A stretch of 64,000 nt of DNA from Halobacterium sp. DL1 (GTDB lineage Archaea > Halobacteriota > Halobacteria > Halobacteriales > Halobacteriaceae): positions 1,736,001 through 1,800,000 of the forward strand of contig CP007060.1 of assembly GCA_000230955.3 (NCBI GenBank), given 5' to 3'. Of this stretch, positions 20,211 through 22,285 are shown piece by piece (position 1 is the first letter of the stretch; each line of letters opens with the position of its first letter). A program made the position numbers and the translations under genes. The notes beneath the pieces are model-generated. The model worked only from the letters and a program-made list of their open reading frames with translations. It was not told the origin of the DNA and did no database searches.

Positions 20211-21092
20211 ATGCAAGCGCTGGTCATCGTCGGGCACGGCTCGCACCTCAACCCCGGGTCCTCGGACCCGGCGTTCGCGCACGCCGACACCATCCGCGAG
20301 GCGGGTGCCTTCGACGAAGTGCGCGAGGCGTTCTGGAAGGAGGAGCCGTCGTTCCGGGAAGTTCTCCGCACGCTCGAATCCGAGGAGGTGTTCGTCGTCC
20401 CGCTGTTCATCTCGGAGGGCTACTTCACCGAAGAAGTCATTCCGCGAGAACTCCGCCTCGACGACTGGGACCCCGCGGACTGGGACTCAGACGGCACCGA
20501 CGCCGACCACGTCACCCTGCGCGCCGAGGACGTGGACAAGACTGTCCACTACTGCGGCCCGGTCGGCACCCACGACTCGATGAGCGACGTCATCGTCCAG
20601 CGCGCGAAGTCCATCACGGGCGACGACGACGTCGGGCCGGGCTTCGGCCTCGCCGTCGTCGGCCACGGCACCGAGCGCAACGAGAACTCCGCGAAGGCCA
20701 TCTACTACCACGCCGACCGCATCCGCGAGACGGGACGCTTCGAGGAGGTGCAGGCCGTCTTCATGGACGAGGACCCGGAGGTCGACGACGTCACCGAGTT
20801 CTTCGACGCCGAGGACATCGTCGTCGTCCCGCTGTTCGTCGCCGACGGCTTCCACACCCAGGAGGACATCCCCGAAGACATGGGCCTCACCGACGACTAC
20901 CGGACCGGCTACGACGTGCCCAGCGAAGTGGACGGCCACCGCATCTGGTACTCGGGCGCGGTCGGCACGGAACCGCTCGTCGCCGACGTCGTGCTCGAAC
21001 GGGCGGCAGAGGCGGGCGCCGACGTCGCGGACGCCATCGAACTGGTTCGCGAGCGAACCGGCGGCGCGAACGCCGCGAGCGCGGGGGACTGA
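20211..21092 (+). CDS. cbiX: CbiX-type sirohydrochlorin chelatase
   Basis: A 293-residue two-domain chelatase of the CbiX family, which inserts metal (cobalt in cobamide synthesis) into sirohydrochlorin. The two halves repeat the fold: the first starts LVIVGHGSHLNPGSSDPAF with PLFISEGYFTEEVIPREL, the second VVGHGTERNENSAKAIYYHA with VVPLFVADGFHTQEDIPEDM. The His of each GHG motif is the likely metal-handling residue. The stop overlaps the start of the DR2241-like gene by one base (TGATG), so the two are translated together. Confidence 0.88.
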   Translation: MQALVIVGHGSHLNPGSSDPAFAHADTIREAGAFDEVREAFWKEEPSFREVLRTLESEEVFVVPLFISEGYFTEEVIPRELRLDDWDPADWDSDGTDADHVTLRAEDVDKTVHYCGPVGTHDSMSDVIVQRAKSITGDDDVGPGFGLAVVGHGTERNENSAKAIYYHADRIRETGRFEEVQAVFMDEDPEVDDVTEFFDAEDIVVVPLFVADGFHTQEDIPEDMGLTDDYRTGYDVPSEVDGHRIWYSGAVGTEPLVADVVLERAAEAGADVADAIELVRERTGGANAASAGD

Positions 21093-22285
21093 TGTCCGCA
21101 CCAGAAACCGTCGACGCCGTCGCCGACGCGCTCCTCGACGCCGCAGACGCCGGCATCGACTTCGATGGCCTGACCGTCGAACCGTTCCGCGAGGCGTACC
21201 GCTGGCAGACGCCGGAGGCCGAGGCCGTCGTCTCCGCCGAGGAACTCCGGGGGTACGCCGACGACCCGTACGCGACGAACTGGTACTACTGGGAACGCGA
21301 GGTCGGCGGCCACGACACCGCGCGGCGCGCGTTTCTCCGATGGCTGGAGGGTGACGACCTGGCCCCCGACCGGTACGAGCAGTTGCGCGGCGGCCACACG
21401 CGCCACTGGGGCGAACTCGCTATCACAGTCGTCCTGAGCGAGGGTGGCACCCGGCGCTACGAGGTGCGCCACGAGGACGACGTGGGCGAAGACGTTCGGA
21501 AGACGACTGAGTCGTCTTCCGCAGTCGCCCGAGAGTCGCTCTGCGTCTCTCGGGATGACGAGAGGGCGAAGCCCTCTCGAACCACCCATCAGAACGCGAA
21601 GCGTTCTGAGGACGTCGACGCGTACACGGACCCCCTCGATGCGCGCCACCTGGTCAAGCACGACGACGAGGGGCGCTACCGCCCGCTCTCGACTGCACCG
21701 TCGCTCCCCCACGGCTGGGCGTTCGTGGACCTCGACGGCAGCGACCTCGTCCAGACCGTGGAGTACATCTACCCCGCGACGGTCGCCAACTGGTACCGCG
21801 AGCGCGAGGGCGACCTGGACGTCGATCACTGGGCCGACGCCGCGGGCCGCCAGACCGGCATCTACAGCATCGTCGAACAGCTCGACGGCGAGGCCCTGGA
21901 GTGGGCCGCAGAGGCCTGCTGCGTCGACTCGCAGTGTCTGAAGCGCCGCGAGTGGGACGAGGACGAGGACACCGAACTCGACGTCCCGCGCGGCGACGGC
22001 GAGTTCCCCTGCCGCGAGCCCTGTTCGCTGTTCGTCGCGGCGGCGCGGAAGTTCGTCACGCTCGAACGCGAGGAGAGCCGCGAGTACACTTTCGAGCTGA
22101 CGCCGGCCGAGAAGGAACAAATCGAGGACATCATCGGGACCGTCGCAGACGGCCGCACGGACGAGATCCGCGAGGCGGACGTCAACGAGGGCGCGAACCG
22201 CTACCGGGCGCGGTTCCTGCGCGCCAAGCGGATGGACGAACACGGCCTCTCGGGGACGCCGACGTACCCCGAGGACCACGACTGA
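21092..22285 (+). CDS. DR2241-family Cys-rich protein with an in-frame hairpin insertion
   Basis: A 397-residue protein coupled to cbiX, matching the DR2241-type proteins that accompany chelatases in haloarchaea. Cysteines cluster near the C-terminus (Cys276, 277, 282, 307, 311), a plausible iron-sulfur site. Residues about 136-173 are unlike the rest: polar, Ser/Arg-rich, and encoded by four back-to-back inverted repeats. Protein similarity to the family should break off after YEVRHEDDVGED and resume at VDAYTDPLDARHLVKHDDEGRYRPL, so the block appears to be an insertion that kept the frame. The role is probably in tetrapyrrole/cobamide metabolism, inferred from the neighbour. Confidence 0.8.
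   Translation: MSAPETVDAVADALLDAADAGIDFDGLTVEPFREAYRWQTPEAEAVVSAEELRGYADDPYATNWYYWEREVGGHDTARRAFLRWLEGDDLAPDRYEQLRGGHTRHWGELAITVVLSEGGTRRYEVRHEDDVGEDVRKTTESSSAVARESLCVSRDDERAKPSRTTHQNAKRSEDVDAYTDPLDARHLVKHDDEGRYRPLSTAPSLPHGWAFVDLDGSDLVQTVEYIYPATVANWYREREGDLDVDHWADAAGRQTGIYSIVEQLDGEALEWAAEACCVDSQCLKRREWDEDEDTELDVPRGDGEFPCREPCSLFVAAARKFVTLEREESREYTFELTPAEKEQIEDIIGTVADGRTDEIREADVNEGANRYRARFLRAKRMDEHGLSGTPTYPEDHD
21498..21609. repeat. array of four consecutive hairpins inside a coding region
   Basis: Four inverted repeats follow one another within 112 bases. (a) 21498-21520: 10-base perfect arms, 3-base loop TGA. (b) 21528-21554: 8-base perfect outer arms CCCGAGAG/CTCTCGGG that extend, past one T-T mismatch, by CGC/GCG around a TCT loop. 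(c) 21559-21579: 9-base arms around GAA. (d) 21589-21609: 9-base arms around GAA. Hairpins c and d contain the heptamer GCGAAGC, known to form an exceptionally stable DNA mini-hairpin. The block is read through in frame by the DR2241-like gene. Confidence 0.85.

Follow-up and report, generated by a model that had tools for sequence, protein, structure and literature searches.

The Rickettsia palindromic elements (RPEs, reviewed in PMC10969869) are small dispersed palindromic repeats of ≈150 nt, which lie in frame in many unrelated genes with a conserved reading frame. The haloarchaeal element described here likewise is a dispersed palindromic repeat found in frame in unrelated protein genes, a likeness drawn by analogy and without sequence comparison, and it differs from the RPEs in its archaeal hosts and in a basic unit of only ≈60 nt. 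The CGTC-tagged REPs, which include RPE-4 and RPE-6 and have been reported from bacteria (Di Nocera et al. 2013, PMC3733652), share with it a CGTC-like foot, stems of ≈8–9 bp, a CCA-like tail, dimers encoding 20–30 amino acids in genes, and the lack of a known dedicated transposase. The unpaired CGTC tag is present as a GGACG foot (CGTC in reverse) at the second hairpin (hp2) in nearly all copies, and as CGTC or CGTT at the first (hp1). The loop of 4–5 nt and the A/T bases in the first two stem pairs of the CGTC-tagged REPs are not met, in that the haloarchaeal loops have 3 nt and the stem bases are mostly CG, AC or TC. Furthermore, the bacterial dimers are mostly arranged head-to-head with facing tags, whereas the haloarchaeal tags point outward and the tails face each other; this outward type is rare among CGTC-tagged REPs. 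The two-hairpin unit of the archaea is very regular.

Within the haloarchaea, one of the closest described systems is SMR-A of Haloquadratum walsbyi, ≈110 bp long with prominent terminal inverted repeats (PMC3119063). Both elements are free of a transposase, cause no target duplication, occur in tens of copies and are mobilised by unexplained means; insertion into the near-terminal palindromes of IS605/PATE elements is met at L097, L123, L139 and similar loci, with many copies located elsewhere. In contrast to SMR-A, the present element lacks prominent terminal inverted repeats, is ≈60 nt long and has many copies in genes. PATEs and the IS200/IS605 family (PMC3119063) resemble it in carrying hairpins near both ends and in the absence of target duplication, but their end palindromes are unlike, and element copies persist in genomes without a Y1 transposase. 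A classical MITE of a DDE transposon was rejected, because terminal inverted repeats with a target-site duplication are absent. The element behaves like the RPEs and resembles the CGTC-tagged REPs and SMR-A, but for each of the latter two it lacks one or more of the defining features tested. For an intragenic archaeal family that stays in frame, a limited search of the open-access literature returned no previous description. Palindromic insertions that keep the frame have so far been described mainly in Rickettsia and in certain bacteria rich in REPs, and the haloarchaeal family represents a widespread archaeal counterpart.

The hairpin block and its host gene

The window, i.e. the whole stretch of DNA analysed, comprises 64 kb (C1:1736001–1800000) of a 3.16-Mb Halobacterium genome (G000). 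Its features are compiled in Table 1. The host gene lies downstream of a CbiX-type chelatase gene, and the inserted copy is a composite, with a 60-nt two-hairpin module nested in the spacer of a basic ≈60-nt unit. The right outer part ends in GAC, the same trinucleotide as found at the target.

Table 1. Coordinates of the host gene, the inserted unit and its parts in the window
Feature	Position	Strand	Description and basis
Host gene	21092..22285	+	397-aa protein; DUF7348, DR2241 and Fer4_23 (4Fe-4S) domains
Target tetranucleotide AGAC	21490..21493	+	Adjoins the insertion on the left; family consensus RRC^G
Complete inserted unit	21494..21613	+	120 nt at a GAC^G site; empty site of G010, unit boundaries common to the family
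Outer element, left part	21494..21524	+	GTT, hairpin 1, CAG; matches copies with the right part directly after it (60-nt short forms)
Hairpin 1	21497..21521		11-bp arms, TGA loop
Nested inner module	21525..21584	+	60 nt; hairpin 2, ATGA, hairpin 3, AACCA; partial copies at G000 C1:2386002, 848177, 2481924, 1859205
Hairpin 2	21528..21554		12-bp arms with one mismatch, TCT loop
Hairpin 3	21559..21579		9-bp arms, GAA loop, GCGAAGC tip
Outer element, right part	21585..21613	+	CCCA, hairpin 4, GGAC; pan-haloarchaeal motif CCATCAGAAC..GTTCTGAGGA
Hairpin 4	21589..21609		9-bp arms, GAA loop, GCGAAGC tip

An earlier note, made from the sequence alone, had described four successive hairpins at 21498–21609 (112 bases, residues ≈136–173), two of them with GAA loops containing GCGAAGC, in a block that keeps the reading frame. 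The four hairpins are located where the note had put them, the GCGAAGC tips were confirmed for hairpins 3 and 4, and the frame is indeed kept, with 40 codons placed between two codons of the gene. The extent was nearly correct; alignment to the empty site gave a slightly longer insertion, corresponding to residues 135–174. The folding that the note had proposed as a check was computed; at −44.9 kcal/mol for the DNA and −74.6 for the RNA, the block folds in both forms ≈8 s.d. better than dinucleotide shuffles. In the window, 23 hairpins with arms of at least 8 were listed (some double-counted under different loop lengths), vs 5–8 in triplet shuffles; three of the four block hairpins are perfect enough to appear in this list, all inside 113 nt.

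The DR2241 domain match in the host protein is split into two stretches, and the sole PDB relative, 2jh3, aligns from residue 168 onward. All relatives having the host gene align to residues 1–135 and 173–397, with no residues in between. The same peptide encoded by divergent DNA in relatives, an outcome which the earlier note had held to refute its reading, was not found; the relatives are simply without the insert. The 120-nt unit is missing from this site in all 12 other genomes of the genus. In the closest relative, G010, the empty site reads GGCGAGGAC^GTCGACG, to be compared with GGCGAAGAC[GTTCGG...TGAGGAC]GTCGACG in the window, and this particular insertion is present in one species only.

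Architecture and distribution of the family

The basic unit of ≈60 nt consists of two covarying hairpins in the arrangement GTTC-[hp1]-GCAGCCCA-[hp2]-GAGGAC. A BLAST search with the 113-nt block within the genus yielded full-length relatives in G011 (five, including one copy with 2 extra bases) and G012 (one); two further matches in G011 cover all but the first 16 nt, besides many shorter pieces. These pieces resolve into two modules, the outer ≈60-nt unit and a distinct inner two-hairpin unit which also occurs alone. When the GTDB genome collection was searched with an exact pattern for the right half, 116 stretches matched. The listed titles are haloarchaeal, with two exceptions, an odd MAG of bacterial origin and another whose label says no more than Euryarchaeota; hp1 was found directly upstream in nearly all of these matches, though the pattern did not require it. 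Short units range from 51 to 61 nt, and the element ends have only GTYC in common.

The conservation of the hairpins is shown by a covariance model, R1, built from 32 copies. Its stems covary, with 95.7% of the cells paired and 83 double-change cells vs 24 in shuffles, and none of 500 shuffles reached the score; the covariation was lost when the pairing registers were slid. In this context one has to consider that the copies were picked by a pattern fixing the outer part of hp2, and the independent evidence for covariation mostly concerns hp1 and the inner pairs of hp2. All 13 genomes of the genus were matched by R1, with 6 copies in the window's own genome and 57 raw matches in G011, a number which counts overlapping and reverse-strand matches. 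The search for further copies suggested in the earlier note has in this way revealed a family dispersed far beyond its genome: at E ≤ 1e-4, R1 matched 253 of 292 near-complete haloarchaeal genomes and 72 of 77 genera. Usually there were several copies each, at the least, as few candidates were scored per genome and the counts of this survey are lower bounds. No R1 match was obtained in the Haloquadratum plasmid PL47, and viral contigs held weak matches at most, so that viruses as carriers remain unsupported.

On the other hand, the block might be regarded as an element conserved at the RNA level, be it an sRNA, a riboregulator or a signal for processing, which by chance lies within the host gene. 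The strong RNA fold and the covarying stems are in its favour. Against it, the structure is found in unrelated genes and in spacers, the same gene in relatives is without it, DNA folding is just as non-random, and an Rfam search of 12 related loci gave no credible match, only sub-threshold chance matches to unrelated families. This alternative is considered very improbable, and the proposal of the earlier note that the hairpins form a structured signal in coding sequence, taken as belonging to the host gene, is not supported, since this structure is shared by unrelated genes and by intergenic DNA.

The hairpin loops are mostly 3 nt long and vary freely (GAA, TTC, TTT, CAA, GCA and others), often as mutual reverse complements, as if the tips invert. 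A second two-hairpin family, GTCG..[CGAAAG..CTTTCG]TGATGA[CGAGAG..CTCTCG]AACCAC, is the same module as that nested in the window copy; it occurs alone, apparently in spacers, in several genomes (L039–L042, L053–L055, L061, L069 and L075, from G000, G010, G005, G007, G008 and G001).

Target site and empty alleles

Intragenic sites with the element removed were joined to a chimeric query, cut to the first nine sites, and aligned to other Halobacterium genomes. The query runs straight across the junction, typically with 80–96% identity. A junction analysis of 30 loci showed empty alleles for seven of the nine sites and a partial one for another; the remaining empty sites rest on the coordinates of the straight-through alignment. 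The boundaries of the insertion are exact, and so is the target: over 80 distinct loci the consensus is RRC^G, with RRC as the left flank and G as the right base, each in about nine of ten cases or more. At one site in G011, where GGC stands on the left and GAC on the right, the empty allele reads GGC^GTCG, and the duplication therefore amounts to C or CG at most. No target duplication beyond 1–2 nt was observed. The 8-nt repeats flanking the window copy were considered as a target duplication and rejected, as other empty sites have only C (or CG) in common.

Reading frame, orientation and host proteins

Long ORFs from the loci themselves served to train a codon model, by which the flanks of 89 copies were scored; for many loci the intragenic status depends on this score. 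In Halobacterium, 22 copies are confidently intragenic after removal of duplicates, with coding sequence in a single frame on both sides. Every one of them has the same orientation and phase and is inserted between codons, encoding roughly VRKTTESSSAAHQNAKRSED. From the RRCG sites in coding DNA the observed class is predicted at 33%, or at 41% when only the four stop-free orientation/phase classes are counted; the nominal probability of 22/22 is ≈3e-9. Lengths are a multiple of 3 in 21 of the 22 intragenic copies vs 27 of 47 copies with at least one non-coding flank (Fisher p = 0.0015). The frame and strand bias is in this way established, but the copies have a common ancestry and are not fully independent; the p-values are rough, and ≈3e-9 indicates no more than the order of magnitude. 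Outside the genus, the same rule of orientation and phase holds for four scored loci and two annotated plasmid genes (fibrillarin, P-type ATPase). The host protein gains 17–20 residues, and 40 in the window copy because of the second 60-nt two-hairpin module nested in its spacer.

Frame-breaking copies do exist. In the genome of the window itself, one of 58 nt shifts the frame of a macro-domain-like gene, and another of 58 nt, in a thioesterase-like gene, is common to G009 (L267) and G011 (L249). In G009 the ORF downstream of it is still intact; in G011 it carries a second break, and dN/dS against intact relatives is ≈0.7–1.1, a value which is partly due to this second break. Insertion is thus not guaranteed to preserve the frame, favouring selection as the filter, although only two cases are at hand. 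It remains possible that the bias in strand and phase reflects an insertion preference instead of selection.

One could also argue that the inserts are introns, or are otherwise removed before translation, such that the frame is irrelevant; the precise insertion and the unchanged flanking codons would agree with this. It is all but ruled out by the 21 of 22 intragenic copies with lengths divisible by 3, all in one stop-free phase, and by the frame-broken thioesterase-like gene, which went on to a second frame break in G011. The inserts rather appear as part of the proteins, and a peptide close to VRKTTESSSAAHQNAKRSED in haloarchaeal proteins should be annotated as element-derived.

Host genes, identified by Pfam or by direct reading, encode NAD kinase, lipoate ligase, DUF2797, a DUF84 NTPase, a GNAT acetyltransferase, DUF5807, an amine oxidase, MinD/ParA, an MFS transporter, XPB helicase, PhoU, PAS/histidine kinases, Kae1-Bud32, Nnr, a UvrD-like helicase, an ABC ATPase, fibrillarin and a P-type ATPase. 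TrpB carries an insert in both Natrialba and Haloferax, at positions one codon apart, so these were probably independent events; one gene in G011 holds two copies 189 bp apart. The domains around the insert are intact. Since a number of the host genes are conserved and likely to be essential, it is inferred that the proteins probably work with the insert. The element repeatedly provides conserved proteins (Kae1-Bud32, NAD kinase, fibrillarin, TrpB) with short inserts. An AlphaFold2 model of TrpB with its insert, based on two aligned sequences only, had a mean pLDDT of 34 and is meaningless; no structural claim is made.

In the case of the DR2241-type protein, the 40 residues might be a functional addition, selected for its own benefit. 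The peptide is polar, as would suit a halophilic protein, and the reading frame is preserved. On the other hand, close variants of it occur in many unrelated proteins and the insertion in the window is restricted to one species, which makes this explanation very unlikely. The insert appears to be tolerated, and nothing points to a new function. The first reading of the earlier note, according to which a mobile palindromic element lies within the gene, is supported by the absence of the insert in relatives, the many dispersed copies and the many unrelated host genes; that it has been domesticated, as the note added, has not been shown.

Variants of 51 nt in the catalytic region of histidine kinases (L292, i.e. 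G001:C1:841120; G000:C1:2332641; G011:C1:693716) appear to duplicate the NAVEHG motif, ENLFRNAVEHG[STDPQNAKRSED]AVEHG. Many copies from Natrialba, Natrinema, Natronococcus and their relatives have one common flank resembling an IS6-type transposase gene (L080, L085, L096, L106, L112, L121, L127, L152, L154 and others); here the insert brings a stop in the apparent frame.

Origin and mobilisation

The block is most likely a copy of a non-autonomous mobile palindromic element, distributed throughout the haloarchaea and inserting in genes or spacers. Its mobility over evolutionary time is shown. The ancestral unit would have comprised two hairpins with outward-facing CGTC/GACG-like feet, inserting at RRC^G in genes or spacers with a target duplication of at most 1–2 nt. 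Copies surviving in genes would be those that do not split a codon, have a length divisible by 3 and lie in the single combination of orientation and phase from which a short polar peptide is read; selection at the protein level is inferred to filter the insertions. An enzyme supplied in trans, hitherto unidentified, may recognise the folded hairpins, probably on single-stranded DNA, and cut after RRC. Such an enzyme is favoured because the arms covary and target duplication is lacking, both of which fit, but this is inference only. Neither an autonomous partner element with matching ends nor a mobilising transposase was found. No transposition was seen at the strain level or in the laboratory, so present-day activity is unproven.

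Alternatively, the element could derive from an IS200/IS605 transposon of which only the termini are left (PATE), and be moved by the Y1 transposase TnpA. Hairpins at both ends, the lack of target duplication, a short target followed by the insertion, and a right end similar to the target are all IS200/IS605-like; haloarchaeal PATEs of 52 bp (PMC3119063) provide a precedent, and Y1 genes are present in 201 of the 292 genomes. However, the one IS605-type element in the window's genome has different end palindromes (CGCCCGCCGTAAACGGCGGG type), with the reservation that not all IS605 types elsewhere were checked, and the element inserts into IS605-type palindromes instead of being one itself. Y1 is missing in G012 (18 raw matches), G004 (8 raw matches) and other genomes with several copies, where its past presence is not excluded, and the counts of Y1 transposases do not follow the presence of the element. 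A PATE origin is accordingly regarded as unlikely, and a non-autonomous element with an unidentified mobilising enzyme remains the preferred reading.

A bolder version would describe a class-wide archaeal selfish family kept partly as protein-coding DNA, whose hairpins have been shaped jointly by an unknown, structure-recognising mobilisation at RRC^G and by the constraint that one frame must encode a peptide which is polar, halophile-compatible and harmless; taken as a whole, the balance tips slightly against it at present. As Halobacterium and Haloferax are amenable to genetics, the empty sites are exact and the target is defined, a long-standing question becomes testable, namely by what such elements are moved and whether they are merely tolerated by their hosts. 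As a minor observation, the copies at 1607805, 1377287, 1581987, 1821127, 2370020, 1090489, 1723659 and 343399 of G011:C1 sit in a larger repeat with common flanks (GACCGCCCACTCGGCGAACCCCGG...), which may point to a secondary amplification in the G011 genome.
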